A DNA stretch of 59,678 nucleotides. Origin: Fibrobacterota bacterium (GTDB lineage Bacteria > Fibrobacterota > Fibrobacteria > UBA11236). This document shows positions 2,482-19,753 of the stretch, piece after piece. The stretch lies in NCBI GenBank assembly GCA_028287465.1, contig JAQBPO010000096.1:1-59678 (forward strand), given 5' to 3'. Made by a program: the position numbers and the translations under genes. Positions within the stretch are counted from its first letter, which is position 1; each line of letters starts with the position of its first letter. Under the pieces are notes generated by a model, which worked only from the letters and a program-made list of their open reading frames with translations, was not told the DNA's origin and ran no database searches.

Positions 2482-2509
2482 TCGCCTCGGTTCGGACGGC
2501 GGCGCGCGG

Positions 2510-2538
2510 GTGAAAATGCGGCCGATAAACGTTATAAT
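2510..2538 (+). promoter_or_regulatory. Promoter predicted to give a leaderless transcript of the glycosyltransferase gene
   Basis: GTGAAA (2510-2515), a 17-nt spacer and a perfect TATAAT (2533-2538). The hexamer ends exactly 6 nt before the ATG at 2545, so transcription should begin at or next to the start codon. No Shine-Dalgarno site lies between. Confidence 0.6.
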
Positions 2539-2544
2539 GGAACC

Positions 2545-3567
2545 ATGATGACGGAACCCGAAGCGGCCCAAGCCGGCAAATGGGTGGTGGTGCTGCCCCC
2601 GGAGGGCGCCGCGCGCAATGTCGGGGAAAAGGCCTGGGAAGCGTTATGCGCCATGCTGCCGGCCGGGAACCGGAAGCTCTTCGATACCAAGTCCTACCTG
2701 GACGCTTTCGATCGCCTGCTCAAGGAACCCAGCGACGACATGGTCGTCGACCTCGCCAACCAGGCGCTCATCGTCCAATGCCTTGATTTCCGGGCCACCC
2801 ATATCCTGGTCATCGCCTTGAGCCCGGTGACCCGTTTCACCGTGGACCTGTTGCGCCGCCAAGGCATGGCCCCGATCCATTGGTTCATCGAGGATTTCCG
2901 GGAAGCGAAGTACTGGAAGGAAGTCATGCCGGCCTACCGCCATTTCCTCGCCATCCAGCGAGGTCCGGTGGAAAAAGCCTGCGCGGATGCGGGCGTCGGA
3001 TACGCGTACATGCCCACCGCGGCCATCCTGAAGCCGCGCCCTTCGGTGAAATCCTGGCGCGAGAGGACGGAAGGCATCGCCTTCATCGGCTTCCCCAGCA
3101 AATACCGGGTGGAGGTCCTGGAAGCCCTGGCCCGCGAAGGCCTTCCCCTTAAGGTGGCGGGCCTGGGTTGGGAAAAATACCGGGGCGTCCTGGAGGCCAA
3201 TCTGACCGGCAGGGGCTGGTTCGGCCCCGAGGAGGCCTTCAAGCTGCTGGAGAACTCCCGCATCGGCCTGCATCTGCCCTCCGAGGATCCGGCCGCCGAT
3301 CGCGGGAACAGCCACGTGAGTCCGAGGGTGTTCGATATCCTGGCGGCTGGGTGCCTGCTGATGACGGAAGAAGCGCCCATGATCCGCGAAACCCTTAAGG
3401 ACTGCTCGATCCGGGAATTCCGTGGGGCTGCGGAAGCCGTCCGGACCGCGAAGGCCATCCTGACGGAGGGCGTCGGGGACGCCATTCTGGCGGCCAACCG
3501 GGAAGTGACCCTGCGGGACCACTCCTTCGCCAAACGCATGTCGGAAATCCTGGCCCTGGCGCCATGA
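2545..3567 (+). CDS. CgeB/YkvP-like glycosyltransferase family protein
   Basis: This 340-aa cytoplasmic protein resembles the CgeB/YkvP group, with a C-terminal Glyco_trans_1_2-type domain. The first half looks like the N-terminal Rossmann half (WVVVLPPEG, then a HILVIALSPVTRFTVDLLRRQG strand-helix segment, then PIHWFIEDFRE). From about residue 230 the text EEAFKLLENSRIGLHLPSED and then SPRVFDILAAGCLLMTEEA (near 258) is the typical nucleotide-sugar-binding end of GT-B enzymes, where the acidic pair contacts the donor sugar. Acceptor and donor cannot be read from sequence. It is a single gene between glpK and a convergent trxB. The start is fixed by the leaderless promoter signature just upstream. 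Confidence 0.75.
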   Translation: MMTEPEAAQAGKWVVVLPPEGAARNVGEKAWEALCAMLPAGNRKLFDTKSYLDAFDRLLKEPSDDMVVDLANQALIVQCLDFRATHILVIALSPVTRFTVDLLRRQGMAPIHWFIEDFREAKYWKEVMPAYRHFLAIQRGPVEKACADAGVGYAYMPTAAILKPRPSVKSWRERTEGIAFIGFPSKYRVEVLEALAREGLPLKVAGLGWEKYRGVLEANLTGRGWFGPEEAFKLLENSRIGLHLPSEDPAADRGNSHVSPRVFDILAAGCLLMTEEAPMIRETLKDCSIREFRGAAEAVRTAKAILTEGVGDAILAANREVTLRDHSFAKRMSEILALAP

Positions 3568-3569
3568 AA

Positions 3570-3595
3570 AAAGCGGCCCTGTAAGGAGCCGCTTT
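3570..3595 (-). terminator. Rho-independent terminator of trxB
   Basis: An inverted repeat AAAGCGGC (3570-3577) / GCCGCTTT (3588-3595) has extra CCT/AGG pairing in the loop. Read on the minus strand it is followed by an uninterrupted T run (the A run at 3567-3572 on the plus strand), so it best fits termination of trxB. It may also slow transcription coming from the convergent glycosyltransferase gene. Confidence 0.8.
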
Positions 3596-3630
3596 GCCTG
3601 TCCGACCGATTCCCCTACCGGAACCCGATC

Positions 3631-4578
3631 CTAATGGTGGGAAGCTTCCTCGGATTGGAGGAAGTGCTCGGCATCCAACGCCGCCATGCAACCCGTGCCC
3701 GCGGACGTCACCGCCTGCCGATAGCGCTTGTCCTGCACGTCCCCGGCCGCGAACACACCGCGTACGCTGGTGCGGGTGCTGCCCGGTTCGGTCACGATAT
3801 ACCCCTGCTCGTCCGTCTTTAGTTGGCCCAAGAGGAAGGACGTATTGGGCGTATGCCCGATGGCGTAGAAAAGGCCCTTGGCGTCCAGGTAGCTTTCCTT
3901 GCCCGTCTTGAGGTTCTCCAGCTTGACGCGCGCCAGGGAATCCGTGCCCTCCGCATCCAGCAGGACCGTGTCCCAGACCATTTCCAGCTTGGGATTGTTG
4001 AAAGCGCGCTGCTGCATGGCCTTGCTCGCGCGCAGGGTGTCCCGGCGATGGACCAGGAAGACCCTGGATCCGAACTTGGTCAGATGGGTGGCCTCTTCGA
4101 CGGCGGTGTCGCCGCCGCCCACCACCACCAGGGGCTGGTTGCGGAAAAGCGGCAGGGCCCCGTCGCATACGGCGCAGGCGGATATGCCGCGCTGCCAGAG
4201 AAGCTCTTCTCCGGGAACATGCATGCGCTTGGCGGTCGCGCCCGTGGCGATGATCACGGTCTTGGCCTCGATCATTTCGTCTTCCGTCCAGACCTTGAAG
4301 GGACGGTGGCTGAAATCAACCTTGACCACGGTCTCCGTGCGGATGCGCGTGCCGCAGTGCAGGGACTGATCGCGCATGCGGGTCATGAGTTCGGATCCGT
4401 CGATGCTCGTGAAGCCGGGAAAGTTCTCCACTTCGGTGGTGGTGGTCAACTGGCCTCCGGCGGCGACGCCCCCGGCCATGAATCCCTCGAACATCAGAGG
4501 GGAAAGGTTCGCGCGGGCGGCGTAGATGGCGGCGGTATGGCCGGCCGGCCCGGACCCGATGATGACGACTTGTTCCAT
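3631..4578 (-). CDS. trxB: Thioredoxin reductase (NADPH)
   Basis: This 315-aa FAD/NADPH flavoenzyme reduces thioredoxin in the cytoplasm. The FAD-binding GSGPAG is at residues 8-13, the redox-active CAVC at 135-138, the NADPH-binding [13 protein letters not shown] at 151-163 and the C-terminal FAD-contacting [12 protein letters not shown] near 270. The length is normal. An AGGAG Shine-Dalgarno site sits 8 nt before the ATG. Downstream is a convincing terminator, so it appears monocistronic. The region to the divergent receiver gene (4579-4763) should hold both promoters. Confidence 0.96.
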
Positions 4579-4763
4579 GGATAAGACTCCTGTTAAGCCC
4601 AGAATTTACAAAAATTCCGCAGGGGAGGAGCGTTTGGAAGGCCCAGATCAGGCCTCTCGCCATTGCCGATCATCCGATTTCGGGCGGATTGCCGTTGGGA
4701 TTTGCTGGGTTCTTAATGGTAAAATGGAAGCCGTCCGCCTTCCGGACGAGGAATCCCTGATCC

Positions 4764-5351
4764 ATGAAAATCATGTTGGTTGAAGACGATCCGGTCACCC
4801 TGGTTCTTTGCGAAACGTTCCTGAAAGGCCTCGGCCACGACGTCACTTCGGTAGCGGACGGGGAAAAGGCCTGGTTGTCCCTCACCACAGGCGAGTACCA
4901 CCTAATCATCAGCGATTGGAACCTGCCGGGAACCTCGGGTACGGACCTGTGCGAGCGGCTGCGCGCCCGCCCGTCCCAGGAATACCCTTATTTCATCCTC
5001 ATCACCACCTACCAGGGACGGGAGAAGGTCGATGAAGCCATGAACGCCGGGGTGGACGACTTCCTCACCAAGCCCGTGGATTTGGCGAACCTGGCCATCC
5101 GCCTCAGGGTGGCGGAGCGGATACGCGACTTCCACCGCCAGATCGGCGTCCTGCACCGGCTGCTGCCGATATGCATGTATTGCAAGAAAATCCGCGGCGA
5201 TAAGGAATATTGGGAGAACGTGGACAGCTTTTTCGCCGCCCATCTCGGCGCGGACTTCACCCATTCCCTTTGCCCGGATTGCTACCTGGAAAAGGTGAAA
5301 CCGGAAATCGACGATCTCCGGGAGGGCGGAATCCAAGGAAGCGGGATGTAA
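4764..5351 (+). CDS. Response regulator receiver with a C-terminal CxxC...CxxC domain
   Basis: This 195-aa protein has a complete receiver domain at about residues 1-120: acidic pocket EDD at 7-9, phospho-acceptor D51 in ISDWNLPG and conserved K103 in FLTKP. A short linker leads to a compact tail, ICMYCKKIR at 136-144 and FTHSLCPDC at 165-173, with an intervening YWENVDSFF. The paired CxxC motifs (C137/C140 and C170/C173) suggest a metal-binding or redox module. Tails of this kind recur at the ends of receiver or PAS proteins in various bacteria, but I know of no assigned function. There is no DNA-binding domain. Only 18 nt separate it from the downstream hybrid kinase, so both are probably one transcription unit, and it is a natural partner for that kinase. 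Confidence 0.85.
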   Translation: MKIMLVEDDPVTLVLCETFLKGLGHDVTSVADGEKAWLSLTTGEYHLIISDWNLPGTSGTDLCERLRARPSQEYPYFILITTYQGREKVDEAMNAGVDDFLTKPVDLANLAIRLRVAERIRDFHRQIGVLHRLLPICMYCKKIRGDKEYWENVDSFFAAHLGADFTHSLCPDCYLEKVKPEIDDLREGGIQGSGM

Positions 5352-5369
5352 CTTTTACTCCGGGGTGAA

Positions 5370-8300
5370 ATGATCGAGAACCAATCCAATCGGAAGTCCC
5401 TCCCGGCCGGAACCCGAGCCTCGGCCGGCGCCGCGGATTGGATCCGATCCGCCATCGCGGCCGGCGCGTACGCTCTGATCTCCTTCATCGGCATCCACTT
5501 CACGAGCGGGATTGCGGGTACCACCGCGTTCTTTCCCGTCAGCGGCGTCCTTCTGGCGATGGCCGTCCTCTGCCCGCCCGGGCGTCGGACGAAATTGTTC
5601 CTGCTGGCCTTCTTAGGGAGCCTGGCGGCCCATGCAATGGGCTCGGCTTTCGGGACCGGAGCCGGCGGATTCGCGCTCGCGCCAGGATTGGCGGCCTCCA
5701 AGATCCTCGAAGTCCTGATTGCCGAGCGGCTGATGCGGCGTATGGGAATCGGCCCGGGATTCCTGAACGATCTACGTAAGACCGTACTCTTCCTTGCGGT
5801 GGCCGGTCCGATCGCCGCGGCGGTTTCGGGATTGGCGGCTGCGGCCATGATCGCCGCTTTGACCGGCGCCCCGATAACCGGGAACTGGCTCTCCTGGTGG
5901 ATGAGCCATACCGTGGGACTCGCGGTCCTGACGCCGGCAATCCTGTCCTGGCGCACCCAGGACCTGACCTGGTCCGGCAACCGGTTCCGGCATGCGGAAG
6001 GCATCGCCGCGGTCGCCGCCGTTTCCGCCGCCGCTTACGCGATTTTCGCCCATTGGCAATCCATCTGGGGGCCGTTCGGTCATCCCATGCCCATGGCCAC
6101 CCTGCCCCTGCTCCTTTGGGGGGCATTGCGGCTCGGCGTGCGCGGCTCGGCGAACCTGCACCTGATCGTATTGGCCATTTCCGCGTATTATACCAGCAAG
6201 GGCATAGGTCCCTTCATCGACCTGAACGAATCCCCGATCGAGATACTAGCGTCCATCCAGATCTTCAACTTCACGATGGCGTTCTGCTCCATATTGCCCG
6301 CGATCATGCTCCATTCCCACCTCCGCCTCCACTCGGAACTGCGGGATCGGATCGGCGACCTGAAAAAGGCCCAGAATGACCTGCGCGAGAGCGAGAACCT
6401 GTTCCGGAGCCTGATGGACTCGAACATCATCGGGGTGGCGATCGTCGGCGCGGATGAAGCCTACGAGGAAGCCAACGATGCCTTCCTGGGAATCACCGGA
6501 TACGGCCGCGCGGACCTCGGCTCGGGCAGGCTCACGGTCCGCATGCTTCAGGTGCCGGAGAACGATGCCGGATACCGCTCGATAATGGAGAGGCTCAGGA
6601 CCGACGGGAAAATCGATCCGCAGGAAGGCAAATACCTCCGCAAGGACGGAAGCGTCGTCCCCATCTACCGGGGGGTGACCCGCCTCGCTGATGGCATCCG
6701 GTTCCTGGTGGTGGCGATGGACCTGACGAGGATGAAAGAAGTGCAAACGGCCCTGCTCCGAAGCGAACGCCTCTTCCGCACCCTTGCCGAGGCATCCCTG
6801 GTTGGCACCCTGCGTTTGGACATGCGGGGGGAATGCGTGTACGCGAACCCGAAATGGCTGTCCATGGCCGGCCTGTCCGAGTCGGGCGTGCTGGGAACCG
6901 GTTGGCGCAAAGCGGTCCATGAGGAGGACAGGGGAAGGTTGCGGGCGGCCTGGGACGCGTTCCTGGCGGGCGGTGCTCCGGTCATCGGGGAATACCGCCT
7001 GCTCAGGCCGGATGGCACGGTGACCTGGGTATCCGGTTGGTCTACCGGCCTGTTCGACGATGACGGTTCCAACCTGGGGTATCTCGAGAAGAGCATCGAT
7101 ATCACCGAGCAAATGCGCGCCAAGGCGGAACTGGAAAGCGCCAAGCAATCCGCCGAGAATGCCAACCAGGCCAAATCCCGGTTCCTGACCCATATGAGCC
7201 ATGAAATCAGGACCCCTCTCAACGGGGTGATGGGGATGGTTTCCATGCTCTCGCGTTCCTCCCTGACCCCGGAACAACGGAGTTATGCGGATGTGGCGAG
7301 ACAGAGCGGGGAGCACCTGCTTTCCCTGATCAACCAGGTCCTGGATTTTTCCAAGATCGAAAGCGGGAACCTGGAATTGCAGGCCGCCGAATTCTCCCTC
7401 GGCATCGTGGTCGAGACCGCTATCGCCGCGGTGACTGAAAATGCCCAGAAAAAGGGCCTGGAGATCCTTACCGAGTGGGATCCCGGGCTTCAGGATCGTT
7501 ACCTGGGGGATTCCCTGAGGTTGCAACAGGTGCTTCTGAACCTGTTGGGGAACGCGGTGAAATTCTCGGACCAGGGGGAAATCCGGCTCTCGATCCGCAA
7601 GCGCTCGGAGGCGGCGGAGGAATCCGAACTGCTTTTCGAAGTGACCGATCAAGGACCGGGGATCCCTGACGGGATCGCCGCGCGCATTTTCCAACCCTTC
7701 AGGCAGGGCGATCCATCCCTGTCCCGGAAGGCCGGCGGAACCGGCCTGGGATTGGCGATCAGCAAGGATCTGGCGACCAGGATGGGCGGGGACCTTTGGC
7801 TGGAGAAGGGAAGGGAAACCGGCAGCCGCTTCCGGTTCACCGTACGCCTGCAATCGGCCACCCCTGCGGCGATGGAACCGCAAGAGGACGGCACGGACAC
7901 CGTAACCGCCTGGATCTCCGATTCCCATCCCGCCTCTTCTCTACAGCTTTCGGAGTGGTTCCTGAAATGGGGCTACCGGGTCGAACAATGCCCCATCGGG
8001 GAAGACCTCCTCGTAAGGCTCGAAACGGCGTACCGCGAAGGAACCAGGCCTTCCGTGATTATCGTATCGATATCCGGGGAATCCGGCGAGGAAATCCCCG
8101 TGCGGCTGCTGGAAGGCTCCCGGCGGATGGGGATTCCCGTCTTCTTTTCCGTGCCCTTCATTTCACAAGCGCAAGGGACCGGCTATCTGCGGGCCGGGGC
8201 GGCCGGTCTTTTAACGAAACCCTTCCGGGCTTCGTCGATCCTGGCCTCCATCCGGGAAGCCGTCCCGGGCCGGGCCAAACCGGGGATTTCCCGGCGCAAC

Positions 8301-9080
8301 CCCGAGGACGATCGCCTCGCCACCGCTCTGAATCCCGATCCGCGCATCCTGGTCGTAGACGATCATCCGACCAACCTGCTCGTTGCCTCGACCATGCTCT
8401 CGAAATTGGGATGCGGCGTCGATAGGGTTTCGAACGGGACCGCCGCCATCAAGGCGATCCAGACGCTACACTACGATGTCGTCCTCATGGATTGCCAAAT
8501 GCCCGGATTGGACGGGTTCGAGACCACGGCCCGCATCCGCGCCCTTCCCGCGCCCATGGGGAGGATCCCCATCGTCGCGCTGACTGCGCATGCGGTGGAC
8601 GGAGTCCGGGAAAAATGCCTGGCCGCGGGCATGGACGACTACCTTGCGAAGCCCTTCAGCCTCGAGGCCCTGCATGGAACCCTCAGGCAATGGATCGGTT
8701 CCCGGAACCATGGCCGCGCGTCCGCCGGCATCGATTGGACCAGGCTCGAAGCCTTCGACGACGGCACGCCTAACGGACGGCTGGCCTTGCGGAAATTGAT
8801 CGCGCTTTTCCTCGACGCCTCACGCAGCGACCTCGCCTCGATCCGCGAACATGTCCTGGCGGAACGTCCCCAGGACCTGGCACGCAGCCTGCACCGGCTG
8901 AAAGGAGGTTGCGGAACCGTGGGCGCCATCGCCATGACGGAGCAACTGAAGCTCATGGAGAGCAGCCTCGCCGAGGCCGATATCGGCGCCTGGGCGGGTC
9001 TGCCGGGGATGCTCGAACGCCTTGAAACGGAATTCGGGGTAACCGGCACATTACTGCAGGCGAAAATGCCCCGGGATTGA
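5370..9080 (+). CDS. MASE1-type hybrid sensor histidine kinase with two receivers and an HPt domain
   Basis: This 1236-aa inner-membrane phosphorelay kinase starts with a multi-helix MASE1-like sensor (about residues 20-310). Two PAS domains follow (about 335-455 and 460-585), then HisKA with phospho-acceptor H611 (MSHEIRTPLNG) and an HATPase_c (about 715-830) showing NAVKF, DQGPGIP and GGTGLGLAIS. The next domain (about 845-965) has a receiver fold pattern but no phosphorylatable Asp. A normal receiver follows (acidic pocket VVDDH near 994, D1041 in LMDCQMPG), then an HPt domain with H1175 in SLHRLKGGCG. Phosphate can pass H611 to D1041 to H1175 inside one chain and then to an external receiver, either the upstream 195-aa protein or the convergent NarL-type regulator. 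A GGGGTG Shine-Dalgarno site precedes the ATG. Confidence 0.93.
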   Translation: MIENQSNRKSLPAGTRASAGAADWIRSAIAAGAYALISFIGIHFTSGIAGTTAFFPVSGVLLAMAVLCPPGRRTKLFLLAFLGSLAAHAMGSAFGTGAGGFALAPGLAASKILEVLIAERLMRRMGIGPGFLNDLRKTVLFLAVAGPIAAAVSGLAAAAMIAALTGAPITGNWLSWWMSHTVGLAVLTPAILSWRTQDLTWSGNRFRHAEGIAAVAAVSAAAYAIFAHWQSIWGPFGHPMPMATLPLLLWGALRLGVRGSANLHLIVLAISAYYTSKGIGPFIDLNESPIEILASIQIFNFTMAFCSILPAIMLHSHLRLHSELRDRIGDLKKAQNDLRESENLFRSLMDSNIIGVAIVGADEAYEEANDAFLGITGYGRADLGSGRLTVRMLQVPENDAGYRSIMERLRTDGKIDPQEGKYLRKDGSVVPIYRGVTRLADGIRFLVVAMDLTRMKEVQTALLRSERLFRTLAEASLVGTLRLDMRGECVYANPKWLSMAGLSESGVLGTGWRKAVHEEDRGRLRAAWDAFLAGGAPVIGEYRLLRPDGTVTWVSGWSTGLFDDDGSNLGYLEKSIDITEQMRAKAELESAKQSAENANQAKSRFLTHMSHEIRTPLNGVMGMVSMLSRSSLTPEQRSYADVARQSGEHLLSLINQVLDFSKIESGNLELQAAEFSLGIVVETAIAAVTENAQKKGLEILTEWDPGLQDRYLGDSLRLQQVLLNLLGNAVKFSDQGEIRLSIRKRSEAAEESELLFEVTDQGPGIPDGIAARIFQPFRQGDPSLSRKAGGTGLGLAISKDLATRMGGDLWLEKGRETGSRFRFTVRLQSATPAAMEPQEDGTDTVTAWISDSHPASSLQLSEWFLKWGYRVEQCPIGEDLLVRLETAYREGTRPSVIIVSISGESGEEIPVRLLEGSRRMGIPVFFSVPFISQAQGTGYLRAGAAGLLTKPFRASSILASIREAVPGRAKPGISRRNPEDDRLATALNPDPRILVVDDHPTNLLVASTMLSKLGCGVDRVSNGTAAIKAIQTLHYDVVLMDCQMPGLDGFETTARIRALPAPMGRIPIVALTAHAVDGVREKCLAAGMDDYLAKPFSLEALHGTLRQWIGSRNHGRASAGIDWTRLEAFDDGTPNGRLALRKLIALFLDASRSDLASIREHVLAERPQDLARSLHRLKGGCGTVGAIAMTEQLKLMESSLAEADIGAWAGLPGMLERLETEFGVTGTLLQAKMPRD

Positions 9081-9104
9081 TCGTGCGGGAGGCCCGTCGA
9101 TCCG

Positions 9105-9824
9105 CTAATCCGGATCCTTGATGGGATCCCTGTTGAGCTGGAAGGCATGGTACTGCAATTCCGCGCCCGAACCGAGGCCGAGCTTCCTCTTGATATGCGC
9201 GGAATGGGCTTCGATGGTTTTCACGCTTACGGAAAGCATTTCGGAAATCCCCCGGATGGTATTCCCCTTCCCGATCAGGCGGTAGACTTCGAGCTCCCGG
9301 TCGGTGAGGCGGTCGAGGGAAAGGCCCTTCCCCCCGTCACGGCCGCCCGCCAGGCCCCCGATGATCTTCGCCTTTATCTTTTCGCTTACGGCTATCTCGC
9401 CCTTCAACACCGAGTGGATGCCGGCGATCAGGCCCTCCGGGCGGACATGCTTCATCATGTAGCCTCGGGCCCCGGCGCGCAAGGCCCTTTCCGCGTACAA
9501 GTCCTCGTCATGCATGGAAAGCACAAGGATGGGAAGTTGGGGATGGGAACGGCGGATTTCCCGGATCAGTTCCAGACCGTTGACGCCGTCCAGGTCCAGA
9601 TCGGCCAGGACGAGATCGGGGCGCGCCCCTTCGAGCGCGGCAAGGGCATCCTTGATCCCCTCGGCCTCGCCGCAGACCATCAGTCCCGGATCGCGGCCCA
9701 GGGCCATCGACAGGCCCTGGCGGACCACGGGATGGTCGTCCACCACGAGAATGCGTGCGGGGGCATGCGATGGGATATCGTTCCGCACGTTCAGGGAGGC
9801 TTCCTCGCCATCGGCTTCAGGCAT
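9105..9824 (-). CDS. NarL/FixJ-family response regulator
   Basis: This 239-aa regulator has an N-terminal receiver (acidic pocket VVDDH at 27-31, phospho-acceptor D75 in LVLADLDLDG) and a C-terminal LuxR-type helix-turn-helix at about 165-225 (LTDRELEVYRLIGKG, then SVKTIEAHSAHIKRKLGL). It should dimerise on phosphorylation and bind DNA. It converges on the hybrid kinase that ends 24 nt away, and that kinase's free HPt domain makes it a plausible phosphodonor. The ATG follows a -10-like TAATAT by exactly 6 nt and has no Shine-Dalgarno site. Confidence 0.92.
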   Translation of the reverse strand: MPEADGEEASLNVRNDIPSHAPARILVVDDHPVVRQGLSMALGRDPGLMVCGEAEGIKDALAALEGARPDLVLADLDLDGVNGLELIREIRRSHPQLPILVLSMHDEDLYAERALRAGARGYMMKHVRPEGLIAGIHSVLKGEIAVSEKIKAKIIGGLAGGRDGGKGLSLDRLTDRELEVYRLIGKGNTIRGISEMLSVSVKTIEAHSAHIKRKLGLGSGAELQYHAFQLNRDPIKDPD

Positions 9825-9875: not shown

Positions 9876-10832
9876 TCACCGGTATTTGACCTCTATCTTC
9901 GTCGCGGCGAATTCCCGGTCGAGATCCGGCATCCCGGATACCGCGGCCCCGCCGACGGGGTGGAAGACGTGCAATTCCGGCCCCGGCACGGCGGTTTTCC
10001 CCAGGACGGGGGCATCCTCGCGCATCAGGGCGATGGGATCGTGGGCGGCCTTGGCGCCGCCAGTGGATTCCGCCGCGGGCAGGATCTTCCCGAGGCGGGG
10101 GTGGTATCTCAAAGCGGCCAGTTCGAGCTTGGGGGAATGGACCCTGTTCCGGATCAGGCAGGTGAACCAGGCCTCCATCGCATCCGTTTCGATGGGCTTT
10201 CCTTCGGATTCGAATGCGAGGGGGCGCTTCAGGGAGTAGCGTACCGATATCACGCAATCCCGCTCCGCCTTTTGGATCAGCTTCCGTGATTCGCGGCACA
10301 ACCAATTCCGGATCGGCCGACCGCGGTAGAGGAGGTCCGGCGACCCTTCGTCGAAGGCTCGGCCCTTCGCTTGACCCGGGCCGCACATAAGGGTCAAGGA
10401 CCAGGATTGCACGGTCACATGCCGGACGACCGTTGCGCTCCCGAAATGGGCGAGCAGGTGGGGCGCGCCTTCCGAAGCTTCGACGACGACGATCCCAAAG
10501 GCATTAGCCAGCAGGAGAAGCTCGCCGGTAGCCTTGCCGGAAACGCAAAGGAAGGCGGCTTTAGCCATCAGGCCTTTTTTCTGTTCCACCAGGGTGGTCA
10601 GGCTCTGCCGGGAAGGGGAACCGGCGCCGCTCCAATCCTGGATCAGAACCCGGTTCGGGCTGCCTTGCAGCAGGCCATCGATGACCATCACTTCCGGGTG
10701 GCCCGACTTTCCGGGAACGGATGGGACGAAGTGGATCCGGGTCCCCGTTCCCAAGGAGGACAAAACCATTTCGGCCACTTTTTCGCCGGGGAGGGCCGTT
10801 TTTCCGCAATCGGACTGGGTCGTTTCATTCAA
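9876..10832 (-). CDS. Hypothetical protein with a degenerate restriction-endonuclease-like N-terminal domain
   Basis: I do not recognise this 318-aa protein as a named family. Residues about 15-125 follow the order of Mrr-type restriction-endonuclease-like domains: a helix (EKVAEMVLSSLG), a strand with an acidic residue (EVMVIDGLL), a second strand where the catalytic E-x-K normally sits but here reads LIQDWSG, then VEQKKGLMAKAAFLCVSG and LLANAFGIVVVEA. The missing E-x-K suggests a non-cutting binding domain. The C-terminal two thirds hold a basic stretch (RNWLCRESRKLIQKAERD) and no clear motif. No signal peptide or membrane segment is seen. The start is a TTG. It is divergent from the AAA+ ATPase operon and shares its 200-bp control region. 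Confidence 0.6.
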   Translation of the reverse strand: MNETTQSDCGKTALPGEKVAEMVLSSLGTGTRIHFVPSVPGKSGHPEVMVIDGLLQGSPNRVLIQDWSGAGSPSRQSLTTLVEQKKGLMAKAAFLCVSGKATGELLLLANAFGIVVVEASEGAPHLLAHFGSATVVRHVTVQSWSLTLMCGPGQAKGRAFDEGSPDLLYRGRPIRNWLCRESRKLIQKAERDCVISVRYSLKRPLAFESEGKPIETDAMEAWFTCLIRNRVHSPKLELAALRYHPRLGKILPAAESTGGAKAAHDPIALMREDAPVLGKTAVPGPELHVFHPVGGAAVSGMPDLDREFAATKIEVKYR

Positions 10833-10897
10833 TCGGCAATCCCCAAGGTATGCCCTTTCCGGCGTGGAATAGACTCCGGAATCCCGGTCATCCGATC

Positions 10898-10926
10898 GAG
10901 TGTATCACCTTTGACCTTTATTTGAA
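10898..10926 (-). promoter_or_regulatory. Possible promoter of the endonuclease-like gene
   Basis: On the minus strand, TTCAAA followed by a 16-nt spacer and TACACT, about 65 nt before the TTG start at 10832. The match is moderate. Confidence 0.3.
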
Positions 10927-10948
10927 TCGGGATGCGTCCGCGAAATTA

Positions 10949-10967
10949 TGTAGGGTTTTGCCCTACA
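10949..10967. promoter_or_regulatory. Palindrome between divergent genes, candidate operator
   Basis: TGTAGGG (10949-10955) and CCCTACA (10961-10967) form a perfect 7-bp inverted repeat with a 5-nt centre. It lies about 28 nt upstream of the -35 box of the AAA+ gene, in the region shared with the divergent gene. Position and symmetry suit a dimeric regulator. Confidence 0.45.
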
Positions 10968-10994
10968 TCGGATAAGGGTATTTCCTACGGGATT

Positions 10995-11023
10995 TTGACC
11001 TTTTGCCTTCCGCCGTTTACATT
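10995..11023 (+). promoter_or_regulatory. Promoter with leaderless spacing for the AAA+ ATPase gene
   Basis: TTGACC (10995-11000), a 17-nt spacer and TACATT (11018-11023). The -10 ends 6 nt before a GTG at 11030. This argues that the gene starts at that GTG and not at the TTG at 11003, which lies inside the promoter. Confidence 0.6.
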
Positions 11024-11029
11024 GATTCG

Positions 11030-11944
11030 GTGAGAAAAACGCAAATCGAAAACGTGGAAGTCCACCTGGCCAACCCGGTGGACCTGAATGTCGAATGGAT
11101 TGGCCAGGAAGAACCCCTGACCCAACTCCTTGCCTGCTGGCTTTCCGTGAATCCCGGAGACCAACCCCTATGCCCGCGCCTGGTCGGACATCCGGGTCTG
11201 GGCAAAACCACTTTGGGAATGGCCGCGGCCAGAAGACGCGGTCAGGAAGTCTATGTGCTCCAATGCACGGCGGACACCAGGCCCGAGGACCTCATCATCA
11301 CCCCGGTGCTGGGTGAAAAGGGGAACATCAAATACCAGGCCTCGGCCCTGGTCACGGCCATGATCACCGGCGGCGCCGTAATCCTCGACGAAGGCAACCG
11401 CATGTCCGAAAAATCCTGGGCCTCCCTGGCGCCCCTGCTCGATGACCGCAGGTCCGTGGACTCGCTGGTTGCAGGCATCAACATCAAGGCCCACAAGGAT
11501 TTCCGCTGCGTGGTCACCATGAATGAGGACGATTCGACCTTCGAGATCCCCGATTACATCATGTCGCGCATCCAGCCCGCGATCGAACTCCCCTTCCCAA
11601 AGGCCGAGGAGGAGCTGCGCATCCTGCGCTACAACCTGCCTTCCGCCCCCGAAGAGCTCCTTCGCATCTGCGTGGGATTCCTCCAACAGGCCCATGGCCT
11701 GGACCTGCCTTATTCGATCCGCGACGGACTGAACGCCATCCGCTTTTCCCAGAAGATGAACGAGCTGCGTCCGGACGGTTGGGATGCCCTCTTCACCAAG
11801 GCGATCCGCCAGATCCTGGGCGACGAGGCCCTGGACATGGAATCCCTGGCGGAAAGGCGCAGGCGCGAAGGCAGGCTTCCCAACATGCAACTGGGCGATT
11901 TCTTCTTCGACGAGGACAACCCGTTGAACCCCGACAGGGACTGA
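11030..11944 (+). CDS. MoxR-type AAA+ ATPase
   Basis: This 304-aa AAA+ protein belongs to the MoxR/AAA_5 branch. Walker A GHPGLGKT is at residues 53-60, Walker [11 protein letters not shown] near 115-124 and sensor 1 VVTMNED near 161-167. An SRI arginine-finger candidate is near 180, and a C-terminal helical lid follows. MoxR proteins usually act as remodelling chaperones for a partner encoded next door, often a VWA protein. Here the partner is the 621-aa protein 29 nt downstream. The start was taken as GTG 11030 because a canonical promoter with leaderless spacing sits just upstream; a TTG at 11003 would add nine residues. Confidence 0.85.
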
Positions 11945-11973
11945 GCCTTGCGACATCGTCACGGCGGACTCCC

Positions 11974-13839
11974 ATGAGCATCCGACTCTCACCCAAGGTC
12001 TCCGCCTTCCCGGTCCGCCACGGCCGGGCGCCTTTCGCCATGGAGTTGCGCAAGCTGCTCTGGAACGGCAGCGGCTCGCCCGAGGCGCGCTTCGACGCTT
12101 TCGCCTTCGCGCTGCCCGCGGCCCTCCGCGACGACGCTCTGGAGGGAGCGGATGCGCTGCCTGCCATCCGGGCCCTGGTCATCCGCGTGGACGGGGCCGT
12201 GCGCGCCTACCTTCCCTTCGATCCTTGCGACGCCTACGTGGAAGCGCTGCGCCAGGCCCGCCAACGCCGCCTGCCGGTGGAATTCCTGGAGGACAACTCC
12301 CTCCTGGAAGGCCCGCTCATCCAATCCCTGCCCGATGCCTACCTGGCCAAGGGGATCGGGATGCAACGCTACCAGGAAGTAGCCAGGGAGATCCTCTCCC
12401 GCCAGGAGACCGACGATCGGTTGGAACATCGCGGTTACCTCGCCTATACCGGGTTGCGCCGCATGGAGAAGCGCTTCGGCAGGATCCTGTTCCTGTGCGA
12501 CTTCCCCCTGCTGTCCCGGCTGCAGGATATGTTCCAGGATGGATCGATCTCCGGCATGCTTGCCGAATCGGAGGACCGCGCGGCATCCCCGGCGGAAACC
12601 GTGGAAGCGCGCTCCCACCCGGTCAAACCGGGGCTCTTGTATTTCGCCATGGGCGAGATACCCTTCTATGCGGGCGAAATGGAAAAGGAGCGCCAGAATC
12701 CCCTAGCCGATCCCATGGACTACCTGGACCTTGTGAAGAAGATCTTCGTCGAAACCCGCAACCAGTTCATCAGCGAACCCGGGGAGGCGGGAGCCGTATC
12801 CATCAAGAAGATCCAGTCGGCCCTCGTTTTCCTGCGTAACATGGCCGTGCAACAGGGCCGCCTGACCCCGGACCTGTTGGACGTGGTAACGGCCGCCAAA
12901 GGGGTCTTCGGCAATGCTTTCGCGGCCAAGGTGCTGGAGGCCGCGCGTTATTACCCATTCTTCGATCCGACCGAACCGGAAGGCGGGCTCCTGGAGATCG
13001 GCAGGGACCATGTCCGCGAACCGGATTCGGACGAGCCGGCTGCCGCCTTCAACCTTTTGGAGGACGAACCCAAGGTCTGGAAGACCATAAGCCTCAAGAA
13101 GGAACCGGGAAAGGAGAAACAGCGGCGTTACCGTTACGCCTGGGACCCGCAGGGGATGTGCTCCCATACCCCCGAGGACGAGCGCATCGAGGGATTCAAC
13201 CGGGCCGTCCGCCGCCGCTCCCAGGACCTGGACCTGCAGGGCTTCGCCCGAACGGAGAAACTCACCTCGTCCCTGAAGGACGGCATCGACATCCGCGAGA
13301 CCTTGCGGAACTGGACCACGGGCGGCATCTACGTCAAGGAGATCCCGCCCGCCAAGGGCCGCGTCGATACCGTGGTCATCATCTTCGACGAGGACAACGA
13401 CGAACGGTATCCCTCCCGGACCACATGGTACGCCGAACATGACGAGGAATCCACCCTCACCTTCTACGCGACCGATCCGTTGGCCAAGCTGATCGGGCCA
13501 GGCATCGCCGAGTCGGAGTACGGCGGCCTCAGCCTCCTGTTCCCGCCGCGGCCCGTGAGGAACGTCTTCGATCTGGCTCCGGAGGAATTCGGCTTCCGCA
13601 GCCTGGCGGAACAGCTCCTGTACGGGGGGCTGGCGAACAGCAATGAACGATCCGTGGCCTATGTCAGCCAGCGCAAGCCGGGACTGCGCATGAAGCGCAT
13701 GGCTGCGGGATTCAAGAAGCGCCTGGTCTGGGTGCCCACAGCCTCCTTCAGCGCGGAAACCCTGCGCCATCTCCGCAAATTCCACATCCTGAACGGCAAG
13801 CACGTCCGCGCCTGGGCGGCCCGCTTCATCCCCGAATAG
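11974..13839 (+). CDS. Large partner of the MoxR ATPase, TraB/DUF5682-like N-terminus, unknown C-terminal domain
   Basis: This 621-aa cytoplasmic protein has no signal peptide or membrane helix. The first ~200 residues read like the TraB/DUF5682 superfamily: an RHG near 15-17, YLPFDPCDAYVEALRQARQ near 77-95 followed by PVEFLEDN, SLPDAY with GIGMQRYQE, and a late strand RILFLCDFPLL. A middle helical region follows. The C-terminal 160 residues form a distinct block with VDTVVIIFDEDNDE (from about 463), TTWYAEHDEESTLTFYATD and LSLLFPPRP, ending in a basic RHLRKFHILNGKHVRAW. I cannot name this block, and no VWA MIDAS motif (DxSxS) is visible. MoxR plus DUF5682 pairs are known as operon neighbours, which supports a working complex here. 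The upstream Shine-Dalgarno site is weak. Confidence 0.7.
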   Translation: MSIRLSPKVSAFPVRHGRAPFAMELRKLLWNGSGSPEARFDAFAFALPAALRDDALEGADALPAIRALVIRVDGAVRAYLPFDPCDAYVEALRQARQRRLPVEFLEDNSLLEGPLIQSLPDAYLAKGIGMQRYQEVAREILSRQETDDRLEHRGYLAYTGLRRMEKRFGRILFLCDFPLLSRLQDMFQDGSISGMLAESEDRAASPAETVEARSHPVKPGLLYFAMGEIPFYAGEMEKERQNPLADPMDYLDLVKKIFVETRNQFISEPGEAGAVSIKKIQSALVFLRNMAVQQGRLTPDLLDVVTAAKGVFGNAFAAKVLEAARYYPFFDPTEPEGGLLEIGRDHVREPDSDEPAAAFNLLEDEPKVWKTISLKKEPGKEKQRRYRYAWDPQGMCSHTPEDERIEGFNRAVRRRSQDLDLQGFARTEKLTSSLKDGIDIRETLRNWTTGGIYVKEIPPAKGRVDTVVIIFDEDNDERYPSRTTWYAEHDEESTLTFYATDPLAKLIGPGIAESEYGGLSLLFPPRPVRNVFDLAPEEFGFRSLAEQLLYGGLANSNERSVAYVSQRKPGLRMKRMAAGFKKRLVWVPTASFSAETLRHLRKFHILNGKHVRAWAARFIPE

Positions 13840-15568: not shown

Positions 15569-15874
15569 ATCGTTCCTTGCTGAAGATCTTCCGCCCCGTC
15601 GCCGGTCGAGCTCAACGATGGCGTTCCATCGGCGACCTTTGAGGGGCGTTTGAAGGAAAATAGCAAACTGGGGCAACCGTTACCTTGAGGTCACTCTTAC
15701 GCCACTCCCCCATCGGCCCAGGCCACCCCGCTCCCAAATCTCCCAATTCCGGATGTGAAAACCCAAAGGCGCGGATAGATTGTCCCCATAGCCCGCCCGA
15801 AAAATCCGCCGGTATGGCGCATTTCTGCCTATTTTTTGGCCAGGGTTGGCAGGGTATTTTTCCGGAGAGGAAAA
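15569..15874. other. Intergenic control region between divergent genes
   Basis: This 306-nt gap should carry promoters for the small minus-strand gene and for the large secreted protein. It has an AT-rich stretch near 15826-15838 and a GGAGAGG Shine-Dalgarno site at its right edge. I see no clear -35/-10 pair, terminator, riboswitch or repeat. Confidence 0.5.
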
Positions 15875-18800
15875 ATGGTGTCCGGATTTTCCATTTCGCC
15901 GCGGGTTTGCTCCGCGTTATCGATCCGTATGAAGCGCGCCTTCCGCGACGCCGCCTTGCCGCGTTTGCTCGCCATGCTGGCGATCGCGGCCGCGACGGCT
16001 CCCGCAGAACCGATGATCAATCCTCCGGAAATGATCCCGAACGGGGCTACCGGATGGGTGGGCACGACCCAGTTCGGTTTCAAAAAGGTCTCCGTCGGCA
16101 GGATCTTCTATACCACCGACGGAAGCGCCCCCACCAATAAGAGCACGGAATACGCCGAAGGCGAAGCCGTGACCATCAACCGGACGCTCACGGTCAAGGC
16201 CGTCCATTACACCGCCCTCAGCTACAGTTCGGTCATTTCCGCCGATTTCATCCGCGCCAAGCTGCCCGCGCCGATCGCCAGGTACGGCGGCAATACCAAC
16301 TTCTACCCGGCCGTTACCTGCACCCTGTCCGTGCCGAGGGACGGGGCCGCCCCTCTCATCCACTACACCCTTGACGGTTCCGCTCCCACTCCCTCCAGCA
16401 CCATCTATTCAGGTCCGCTTACCTTCCGCGCCACCACGACCCTGAGGGCTTATGCCGTGCAAGCCGGCTTGGACGACAGCGATCCGATCCAGGTCTCCTT
16501 TACCATGCCGCCTCCGCCTTCGCCGCCCCAGGCCACGCCTCCCGGCCAGCCCTTTTCGACCAATACCCAGACCATCAAGCTGAAGAGCGCCTCCACGGGC
16601 ATTTTCTACCGCTATACCCTGGACACCTCCCTCAAGGTCTGGGACAATGCGCCCATCGTAGCGGGGGATTCGATTTCCATCGTCGGCAAGACCGTGGGCG
16701 AGGTCATCACGGTGCGGATCCAGACCTGCAAGACCGGCTATCCCCCCAGCGCCATCGTCACCGAGAAGTATACCTACCTCCCCGCGGTCGCCACGCCCAC
16801 CGCATCCAGGCCGGCAGGATACTTCTATGATACCGCCACGGTCATCCTTTCCAGCGGGACCTCCGGGGCGGATATCAGGTACGTACTGGACAGCCAGCCC
16901 TTGGGACCGAATTCTCCGGACGGGTCCAAACCCATCTTCCTGGAAAGCTCGGCGTACCTCAAGGCCACGGCATTCAAATCCCCGCAACCCGCGAGCGGGA
17001 TCCTGACCGTCCAATACAACCTGAGGCTCACGGCGCCCATCCTGGGCAGGCAATCCCAGCAATTCAAGGACGTACTCTACGTGCGCATTTCCGCCAAGGC
17101 TCCCAATGCCGGCATCTATTACACCTTGGACGGGACGGATCCCACGGTGACCACCGGGACCCTGATCCGGAACGGGGACAGCGTGGCCATCGGCGCGCCG
17201 ATCACCGAACTGAGGGCGTTCGCGGTCAAGGACGGGATCGCCAGCGCAATCGTTTCCGCGACCTACACCAGGACCAATGAGATCAAGAAGCTCTCGGCGC
17301 CCATCATAGAGCCGGCCGGCCGGGATTTCGTGGACAGCCAATCCGTGGAGCTCAGGTCCGCCGAGGGCGCCGGCGCGCAAATCCATTACACCGTGGACGG
17401 CTCCGTTCCGACCCGGGCCAGCCCGGTATACCTGGACGGCCATCCTCTCCGTTTCGATTCGACCACCATGCTCCGGGCGCAGGCGTTTCCCGTCAGCGGC
17501 AGCCTCGAATCGAGCGATATCAGCGAAGCGCGCTACACCCTCACCCCTTCCCAGCCGTATGCCACGCCTACCCCGACCGAGCCCTATGCGAACAGCGTAG
17601 CCGTAACGCTCGAGACCCGCACCCGGAACGGGTCCATCCGTTACCTCCTGGGCGATGCGCCCCTGGCCCTGGAATTCGGCACCCTTTACGAGAAGGGAAA
17701 GCCCATCGTGATCAATTCGACCACCCGCCTCAGGGCCGTGACCGTGATCGGCACGGGCACCGATGTCAAGTTCAGCGCCGCATTGGACGTTGTCTATGAG
17801 ATCTATACCAGCAACCCTTCCGATACCCTCGCCGCTGGAGCGTCGCGCTCCTTGACCGGCGGATTCGTGTTCGTGAACAATTCCGGTTTCCCCATCATCG
17901 CCAAGACGCACTCCCTGGCCGGTTTTCCCGTCACGGGCTTCCGGGACCCTTCCCTGGGCATCCTGCTCCAAGCCATCCCCACCGACAATTCCGTCAAGGT
18001 CATCTATACCAGACAGGCGAACCAGGCGGGTTCCCTGTATCGCATCGTGAACGGTTCCGTGGAATACCTTTCCAGCGATAGCCGGGTCGACCTCAATCAG
18101 GGCGGCGAGTATTTCATCGGCGTGGACACCCTGCCCCCGATCCTGACCCTGCTCTCCCAGACCCCGAAATCCGGGGACTCCACAGTCGTCCGGCTTTCCG
18201 TGACGGACAACATCATCAACCCCACCTGCAGGATCACCAGCCCGGGATTGCCGGGCGGCGAGGCGGCGCGCAAGCCCGGAGCGGACGGGTCGGTCACGGC
18301 CATGATCAAATCCCCCGGCCCCGACGTGGATCCCAAGGCTCTTTGGTTCCGCGCCGCGGCAGGAGACTTCTACAATACCGGCCGCCTGCCCAAGGATGCG
18401 ACCGGAAGGATTTACGTCTCCCAGATCTGGGGCAAGGTGAAAACGCCCGATGTCCTGCCCATGGGCCAGGCGGTTTCGCCTTGGACCATGGCCGGTTTTC
18501 CGGTCAGCGCTTCCGCGCCCGTCATTTGGGGCCAGGTAAAGCAGGACAATCCCGACGCAGGGTTGAAGGCGGCGGTCTGGAGCATCGCCGAAGGGGCCAA
18601 TGTGTTCCTGGACGATAGCAGCGCCATCACTCCGGGAATGGCCATCTGGTTGGGCTCCCCATCGGCCCGGAACTCGATATCCCTTTCCCGTTTCCGTGCC
18701 GGGGAGTCCGGGAGCGACGGGTCCTATCGCATGCTCCTCCATACCGGCTGGAACCAGGTGACCAGCCCCTCCCTGGACAAGGTGTATTGGCCGACGACCA

Positions 18801-19753
18801 AAACGACGACCAAGAACGGGCAGGTACTGCTGAAGGCTCCTTATCAGTACTTTCCCGCAAGTGACGGATATATCCAGGTGGATTCCCTCGATCCTTGGAT
18901 AGGGTATTTCGTCTATTACTACGGGACTCGGGATACGGTCATCCAGGTCTATACCGATCCTTCCCGGCGAGGCTCGGCCAAATCCGGCGCGGGCGAAGGC
19001 GCGGAGAACCCGACAACCATGAGCGCGACGGTATCGGAAGGGGTGGGTATTTCCCTGGACTTCGGCAAATCCACGCCCCTTTTCCTCGGGGCCATGGCCT
19101 GGGCCCAGGATGGAGTGGGAAGCGAAGACGAACCGGAACTTCCGGCCTGGGGCCGGTCCATGGCCGCCTGGTCGCAACGCGAGGGACGCCATCTCGTTTC
19201 CGATCAGGTCCGGTTCCATTCCGGCGGGATTTCGCAATGGAAGGTCGTGCTTGAGGATGCAGCCAAAGAGACGGGCGGGACCGCAGGTCCCGGAAAAATC
19301 AAGGTCGTTGAAGGGGTCCTTCCCCTCGGTTACCAAGCCTGGGCGGTTTCCGGATCGCGAGGCATGAAATTCCGCCTGGAACCAGGAATGGAAGTGCCCC
19401 TTTCCGGATTGGCCAGGGATACCCTAACGGTCTATGCGGGACCATTGGCCAAACTCGATGCAATCCCGGAATTGTCCACGGCGGTCGCATCCGTGGAACG
19501 CTTCGCCTACGATTTGGAAAAAGGCCCCAATGGCACCGTATTGCGCGTGGCACTGCCCTGGAATTCCGGTTTGGAGGCTGAAATCTGGTCCGCCTCCGGC
19601 CGCCTGCTCGCCGCATCCAGTCCCGGCCGCCTGACCCCGGGCATCTATCGTTTCCCCCTCTCCCGCGGCACGGGATCCCAGGCCGGATTCCTCAAAATCC
19701 GTCTGAGGGGCGAAAGCGGGCAAAGGGAATTTTCCCGCAAAGTCCGCTTCTAG
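15875..19753 (+). CDS. Large secreted protein with chitobiase/HEX_C-type repeats and a type IX-like C-terminal tail
   Basis: This is a 1292-aa exported protein. The N-terminus has a long basic region and then a hydrophobic segment (LPRLLAMLAIAAATAPAEP), so a signal peptide is likely. The body consists of about seven ~90-residue repeats of the CHB_HEX_C type: a core such as IHYTLDGSAPT or IYYTLDGTDPT, then TTTLRAYAVQAG and a closing Y-T-x strand. Four cores are intact and three degenerate (for example RYVLDSQPL and RYLLGDAPL). From about residue 760 a non-repeat region follows that is shared with the next gene, including a WNQVTSPSLDKVYWP segment. The last ~90 residues (IWSASGRLLA, LTPGIYRFPL, ending REFSRKVRF) resemble a Por/FlgD-like sorting tail. 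A surface or matrix role is inferred. The start at 15875 has a Shine-Dalgarno site; ATG 15929 is an alternative. Confidence 0.82.
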   Translation: MVSGFSISPRVCSALSIRMKRAFRDAALPRLLAMLAIAAATAPAEPMINPPEMIPNGATGWVGTTQFGFKKVSVGRIFYTTDGSAPTNKSTEYAEGEAVTINRTLTVKAVHYTALSYSSVISADFIRAKLPAPIARYGGNTNFYPAVTCTLSVPRDGAAPLIHYTLDGSAPTPSSTIYSGPLTFRATTTLRAYAVQAGLDDSDPIQVSFTMPPPPSPPQATPPGQPFSTNTQTIKLKSASTGIFYRYTLDTSLKVWDNAPIVAGDSISIVGKTVGEVITVRIQTCKTGYPPSAIVTEKYTYLPAVATPTASRPAGYFYDTATVILSSGTSGADIRYVLDSQPLGPNSPDGSKPIFLESSAYLKATAFKSPQPASGILTVQYNLRLTAPILGRQSQQFKDVLYVRISAKAPNAGIYYTLDGTDPTVTTGTLIRNGDSVAIGAPITELRAFAVKDGIASAIVSATYTRTNEIKKLSAPIIEPAGRDFVDSQSVELRSAEGAGAQIHYTVDGSVPTRASPVYLDGHPLRFDSTTMLRAQAFPVSGSLESSDISEARYTLTPSQPYATPTPTEPYANSVAVTLETRTRNGSIRYLLGDAPLALEFGTLYEKGKPIVINSTTRLRAVTVIGTGTDVKFSAALDVVYEIYTSNPSDTLAAGASRSLTGGFVFVNNSGFPIIAKTHSLAGFPVTGFRDPSLGILLQAIPTDNSVKVIYTRQANQAGSLYRIVNGSVEYLSSDSRVDLNQGGEYFIGVDTLPPILTLLSQTPKSGDSTVVRLSVTDNIINPTCRITSPGLPGGEAARKPGADGSVTAMIKSPGPDVDPKALWFRAAAGDFYNTGRLPKDATGRIYVSQIWGKVKTPDVLPMGQAVSPWTMAGFPVSASAPVIWGQVKQDNPDAGLKAAVWSIAEGANVFLDDSSAITPGMAIWLGSPSARNSISLSRFRAGESGSDGSYRMLLHTGWNQVTSPSLDKVYWPTTKTTTKNGQVLLKAPYQYFPASDGYIQVDSLDPWIGYFVYYYGTRDTVIQVYTDPSRRGSAKSGAGEGAENPTTMSATVSEGVGISLDFGKSTPLFLGAMAWAQDGVGSEDEPELPAWGRSMAAWSQREGRHLVSDQVRFHSGGISQWKVVLEDAAKETGGTAGPGKIKVVEGVLPLGYQAWAVSGSRGMKFRLEPGMEVPLSGLARDTLTVYAGPLAKLDAIPELSTAVASVERFAYDLEKGPNGTVLRVALPWNSGLEAEIWSASGRLLAASSPGRLTPGIYRFPLSRGTGSQAGFLKIRLRGESGQREFSRKVRF

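Follow-up and report, generated by a model that had tools for sequence, protein, structure and literature searches.

A MoxR-Type AAA+ ATPase and a 621-Residue Protein of an Unnamed Family Form a Conserved Gene Pair in Fibrobacterota and Planctomycetota

On contig JAQBPO010000096.1 of a metagenome-assembled Fibrobacterota genome (GTDB lineage UBA11236; assembly GCA_028287465.1), analyzed over the whole stretch from position 1 to 59,678 (the window), a gene for a MoxR-type AAA+ ATPase (11030–11944, + strand) is followed by a gene for a 621-amino acid protein (11974–13839, + strand, ATG start), with exactly 29 nucleotides between the two open reading frames (ORFs). Few AAA+ proteins are as poorly understood as the MoxR ATPases, whose action is usually explained through VWA partners. 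The two proteins described here probably constitute one functional unit, a dedicated MoxR remodeling pair in which the 621-residue partner would serve as an obligate adaptor or co-chaperone. This model, which we favor with some reserve, is supported by the co-occurrence of the two genes, an operon arrangement with frequent 4-nucleotide overlaps, AAA+ motifs in the ATPase, homology of the partner's N-terminus to known proteins, conservation of its C-terminal part, and vertical inheritance. An earlier reading made from the letters of the window alone (the sequence-only reading) had reported both genes, their spacing, and the partner motifs RHG, FDPCDAYVEALRQARQ and PVEFLEDN, all of which are present.

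Results and Discussion

Co-occurrence and Inheritance of the Two Genes

A single scan of GTDB genomes returned 501 relatives of the partner. The 80 best-scoring loci were read, and since the adjacency statistics derive from these, they are weighted toward relatives near the query. The 80 loci came from Fibrobacterota, Planctomycetota, Nitrospinota, Nitrospirota, Omnitrophota, Latescibacterota, Gemmatimonadota and Tectomicrobia. Under a strict rule, a MoxR gene lay directly upstream and on the same strand in 46 of them, and three further adjacent cases (L078, L100 and L103) had earlier been hidden by an over-long ORF call; 12 of the MoxR–partner gaps were 4-nucleotide overlaps. Adjacency was lacking in 26 of about 75 informative loci. 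At one of these, in the Fibrobacterota genome G010 (L019, positions 2272–5488), three genes stand between MoxR and partner, including those for DNA-alkylation-repair-like and citrate synthase-like proteins. The remaining 25, all with sufficient sequence upstream, were planctomycete or grouped with planctomycetes. When 20 genomes with non-adjacent partner genes were searched, 19 were found to hold exactly one orthologous MoxR gene elsewhere (E < 1e-100), with no second match at 1e-20.

Co-occurrence was then counted in two genome sets that had not been selected for the partner gene. Among 168 Fibrobacterota genomes the partner was present in 42 and the MoxR orthologue in 43, with all 42 shared, and among 149 Planctomycetota genomes the corresponding numbers were 22 and 24, with all 22 shared. 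Over both phyla (317 genomes) the partner occurred in 64, MoxR in 67, and both in 64, giving a combined Fisher p of 5e-64, a value that overstates the strength of the association because shared ancestry makes the genomes non-independent. The conserved pairing predicted by the sequence-only reading was therefore borne out by the neighborhood survey as well as by co-occurrence in genomes, and the condition which that reading had set for its own refutation, homologues found mostly without a MoxR neighbor, did not in substance arise. As judged from these sequence comparisons, the MoxR protein is a strict companion of the partner, the unlinked planctomycete cases included.

The partner tree sorts by phylum, with eight label changes for eight phyla (the minimum is seven, and shuffled labels averaged 28), which indicates that the family is inherited vertically, phylum by phylum. 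The gene is single-copy, save in genome G001, where a decayed second fragment (L024, positions 7632–8498 on contig C48) covers residues ∼404–611 with an internal TGA, and an intact copy lies elsewhere. Congeners of the query in the public set carry the titles Fibrobacteres or Fibrobacteria bacteria. The examined Fibrobacter-like genomes, of genus g4, had no partner gene; such absences are soft, since most of the genomes are metagenome bins. No relative turned up in phages or other viruses, and one plasmid match came from 72,556 records, on a Neochlamydia plasmid where an "AAA family ATPase" is annotated beside a "hypothetical protein." This plasmid, pS13, carries a divergent copy of the pair (L106, positions 4898–7611).

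These patterns bear on the nature of the module, which the sequence-only reading had likened to a conflict or stress-response system. A phage-defense role would not be without precedent: MoxR–vWA modules occur in described conflict systems, planctomycetes included (PMC7159879), and some plasmid DUF5682 loci lie near restriction-type genes. With the MoxR–vWA ternary conflict systems (Kaur et al., 2020; PMC7159879) the pair shares a MoxR core and an occurrence in planctomycetes; unlike them, it has no vWA, effector or variable module at its locus, and that paper mentions neither TraB nor YehM. Neighboring genes are mostly ordinary ones, e.g., for phosphomethylpyrimidine kinase, heptaprenyl diphosphate synthase component I and class II tRNA synthetases, and the 105 neighbors scanned with PADLOC gave few matches, which were scattered and mostly generic. 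Because the pair is inherited vertically, is essentially single-copy, sits among housekeeping genes and has almost no relatives on mobile elements, its interpretation as a defense system is disfavored, and we regard it as very improbable.

The ATPase

The MoxR assignment of the upstream protein was confirmed. It matched Pfam AAA_5 at 66.8 bits (cut-off 22; E = 2.7e-18) and has the features that define MoxR-class AAA+ proteins; the Walker A motif GxPGxGKT, Walker B LDE, sensor-1 TMN and the SRxxP arginine were invariant across 32 orthologues. A profile search of the PDB found midasin, CbbQ and NorQ, with CbbQ and NorQ among the nearest solved relatives; YehL-type MoxR proteins are distant relatives only. 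In most orthologues the C-terminus is a conserved acidic-aromatic tail, DFFFxxDDPLNPD, which is missing in the Neochlamydia orthologue. A PADLOC scan gave just a weak generic match to TRIP13, owing to the AAA domain. Its likely assembled form is a ring driven by ATP.

The N-Terminal Region of the Partner

The partner had no sequence match in Pfam, NCBIfam, PADLOC, PHROGs or the PDB, in line with the earlier impression of an unnamed family, and it was modeled by AlphaFold2 with a predicted local distance difference test (pLDDT) score of 88.8. Aligned by hhalign to eight DUF5682 proteins including Escherichia coli YehM, a profile of the 64-member family scored a probability of 93.4 (E = 2.5e-7), and residues 1–125 (11974–12348, + strand) scored 94.3 over 100 columns (E = 9.5e-8), each of these pairwise E-values holding for one comparison. 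Controls for residues 1–260 failed to reproduce the match (true score 66.2; reversed template 14.5, probability 0.1; maximum of 30 column-shuffled queries 19.6). Aligned alone, the protein beyond residue 125 showed no significant similarity to DUF5682. The middle segment (residues 205–345) had been considered as a further DUF5682 homologue and was dropped; as it was not significant alone, the homology claim is confined to residues ∼1–125. Within that region the proposal of a TraB/DUF5682-like N-terminus stands: by profile comparison it is distantly homologous to DUF5682/YehM and TraB-like. A structure search of a viral library points weakly in the same direction, its best match being a TraB-family protein (E = 0.077, probability 0.82).

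By Pfam's own criterion the partner lies outside DUF5682. The 621-residue protein was unmatched by the DUF5682/YehM model (PF18934) at E up to 1 and did not reach its gathering cut-off, and two of the 64 family members matched at E up to 0.1 (best 0.0082). Like proteins of the TraB/Tiki/ChaN superfamily, the partner has the N-terminal P-x-x-H-G motif and the general layout, with the first histidine retained in 62 of 63 sequences; unlike them, it conserves neither the E-G-P glutamate nor the second histidine motif of the DUF5682 type, and so does not qualify as a TraB/Tiki enzyme. The region is best described as a TraB-like domain that has apparently lost the usual catalytic set. We found no paper that mentions DUF5682 and none that describes the function of YehM.

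The Conserved C-Terminal Block

Residues 376–621 of the partner (13099–13836, + strand) form a 246-residue block with a mean column identity of 60% over 63 sequences, vs. 40% for the whole protein. Its motifs are CSxxPED, DGxDxRET, WYAEHxEEST, GPGI, FPP and HxLNGxxVR. Among its 35 invariant columns are C396, S397, P400, D402, E406, D436, D439, R441, E442, E488, E492, S493, H604 and R612. The block was present in 42 of the 168 Fibrobacterota genomes, nearly always within ORFs of ∼600 amino acids or more, the exceptions being one decayed fragment and genes whose two parts lie on different contigs. A search for sequence relatives outside the partner family found none. Modeled in isolation by AlphaFold (pLDDT 88.1), the block matched nothing in the PDB at E 0.001 by Foldseek, and the fold searches with the partner returned no ordinary metabolic enzyme, so that the second refuting outcome named by the sequence-only reading, a predicted structure of that kind, did not arise either. 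The block is an undescribed domain, likely with an active or binding site.

Short of that significance threshold, the Foldseek search ranked PIWI-bearing short Argonaute systems at the top (8j7s at E = 0.033, then SPARSA/SPARDA), followed by RuvC, RNase HII and an integrase; the RNase H fold class made up most of the top 50, and the whole-protein search showed the same trend. These ranks would suit an RNase H/PIWI-like domain, with the pair remodeling or acting on nucleic acid or a nucleic-acid complex. The individual matches, however, had probabilities of at most 0.25 and TM-scores of about 0.2, an hhalign comparison of the profile with four prokaryotic Argonautes gave a probability of 0.1, and catalytic residues of the DEDD type were not evident. 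The likeness of the modeled block to RNase H/PIWI folds may serve as a lead only, and a nucleic acid-directed function appears improbable.

A further alternative gives the block a chemistry of its own. CbbQ acts on rubisco, and by that example the block could be an enzyme with a new fold or from an unrecognized superfamily, served by MoxR as a dedicated activase with no separate client. The density of polar invariant residues within the 35 of 246 invariant columns is typical of catalytic sites, and conservation is higher in the block than elsewhere in the partner. The same residues may instead form a binding interface, though, and neither sequence nor structure searches matched the block to an enzyme family, nor was a metabolic gene neighborhood common to the phyla found. 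We consider this activase scheme the main competitor of the remodeling-pair model and rather unlikely.

The sequence-only reading had also suggested that the block takes the role of the missing VWA protein. An IRETLRNW sequence before a strand was suggestive of a degenerate VWA domain, but hhalign against the YehP-type VWA gave probabilities of 0.2 for the whole partner family profile and 0.3–0.4 for its C-terminal part, and this identification was rejected. It is possible that the block stands in the VWA role.

Relation to Known MoxR Systems

DUF5682 proteins are encoded in MoxR operons and are seen in E. coli yehLMPQ and in plasmid loci. The E. coli YehL-YehM-YehP(-YehQ) locus combines MoxR, DUF5682, VWA and SWIM proteins, often with DUF4132 or DUF5691. 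As in YehL-YehM-YehP, the MoxR gene of the pair stands directly upstream of a gene whose product has a homologous TraB-like N-terminus. Unlike that locus, the pair has no adjacent VWA, SWIM, DUF4132 or DUF5691 gene, and its genome has no DUF5682 protein; the similarity of the partner to DUF5682 is detectable in the N-terminus only, its conserved block is unrelated, and the two MoxR proteins are distant. The absence of a VWA gene beside the pair agrees with the sequence-only reading and refers to the locus, no genome-wide VWA survey having been made, so that an unlinked VWA protein may yet act as a third component.

Action of MoxR ATPases and their VWA partners as chaperones or cofactor inserters is established in the case of NorQD and has been proposed in that of RavA-ViaA (PMC9976466, PMC3893208). 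NorQ-NorD, RavA-ViaA and CbbQ-CbbO resemble the pair in being two-gene units of a MoxR ATPase and a dedicated partner, and differ from it in that profile comparison revealed no VWA domain in the partner. Of the hallmarks of a MoxR-VWA pair, the partner lacks the VWA domain with its metal ion-dependent adhesion site (MIDAS, DxSxS), and joint inheritance with an orthologous MoxR was found in 64 of 64 partner genomes. The pair is thus not a MoxR-VWA pair by definition. It is related to YehL-YehM in ancestry, via the N-terminus of the partner, and to NorQ-NorD and RavA-ViaA in kind.

A Remodeling-Pair Model

In the model that we favor, MoxR would form a ring driven by ATP, with the partner as its obligate adaptor or co-chaperone. 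The TraB/DUF5682-derived N-terminal domain, having lost most catalytic motifs, may have become a binding or scaffold module, and the conserved C-terminal block would bind a client or act on it chemically. By analogy with NorQ-NorD, RavA-ViaA and YehL-YehM-YehP, ATP hydrolysis would then drive the remodeling or maturation of a single specific client, either a protein or a complex.

Several points weigh against this model. We infer the physical complex, the ring, the adaptor role and the chaperone or maturation function, and that the complex and the ATPase activity are among the inferred parts counts against it. The polar invariant residues of the C-terminal block would suit an enzyme active site equally well, in which case MoxR would be an activase of its partner and the two would not act jointly on a third protein. 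No conserved third gene was found beyond class-level synteny in Chitinispirillia, and hence no client is indicated. MoxR without a detectable partner occurs in three genomes (G088, G218 and G253), for which reason MoxR may act alone in some role; since G218, a one-contig genome, has MoxR while a partner could not be detected in it, the dependence so far looks one-sided.

The broader proposition is that the pair represents a VWA-free MoxR system. Across hundreds of species and several phyla, this MoxR subfamily would have a single, obligate partner, a protein of TraB descent whose C-terminal domain is new and strictly conserved, and possibly catalytic with a novel fold. We advance this tentatively, as a possibility that falls somewhat short of an even chance. 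An obligate VWA-free partner family in ∼500 species, unnamed in the libraries used, would offer a clean two-protein system in which to ask what the partner must contribute to a MoxR ring, and the existence of linked and unlinked arrangements makes the partnership testable without reliance on operons alone.

Gene Starts, Intergenic Elements, and Neighboring Genes

The longest MoxR reading frame opens at a TTG codon at 11003, within a probable sigma-70 promoter of the pair (TTGACC-17-TACATT, 10995–11023, + strand). This was the single promoter-like site found, and similar elements precede the orthologues in several congeners; the distance from the −10 element to the GTG start of the MoxR gene was 6 nucleotides in four of six genomes compared. 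Because the TTG lies inside an element that recurs in congeners, MoxR probably starts at GTG 11030, giving a protein of 304 amino acids, and the spacing suggests a nearly leaderless transcript.

Farther upstream, and outside the module, lies the inverted repeat ATGTAGGG-TTTTG-CCCTACAT (10948–10968, no strand). The sequence-only reading was right that a palindrome exists here, although its arms measure 8 bp rather than 7. The idea that it is a conserved operator was rejected, since the 5.8-Mb genome has a single copy of its core, and the repeat is missing 5′ of the MoxR gene in all five congeners examined.

The divergent 318-amino acid ORF (9876–10832, − strand, starting at 10832) is likewise a bystander. 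It had been credited with a restriction-endonuclease-like fold and counted as part of the module; no family match was found in Pfam, NCBIfam, PADLOC or PHROGs, which leaves the proposed fold unsupported. The gene was rejected as a third component for its patchy presence, in three of six genus genomes, and for its location on a different contig from the pair in G003. It also evolves faster, at 44% and 37% identity vs. 82–85% for the partner in the same genomes.

Chitinispirillia loci (L035–L041, L050 and L066) share a run of genes for DUF2225, MoxR, the partner, a ∼297-amino acid secreted-looking protein, a NusG_II protein and heptaprenyl diphosphate synthase component I. No common neighbor was seen among the unlinked planctomycete MoxR genes. 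Elsewhere in the window, at 5370–9824, there is a gene for a large hybrid sensor kinase whose N-terminal part is a membrane region (MASE1-like); after it, on the − strand and convergent with it, comes a response regulator of the LuxR type. A 1305-amino acid ORF at 15836–19753 contains many repeats of the Y-T-x-D-G-x-x-P-T type (chitobiase/FN3-like) and probably encodes a surface or secreted protein.

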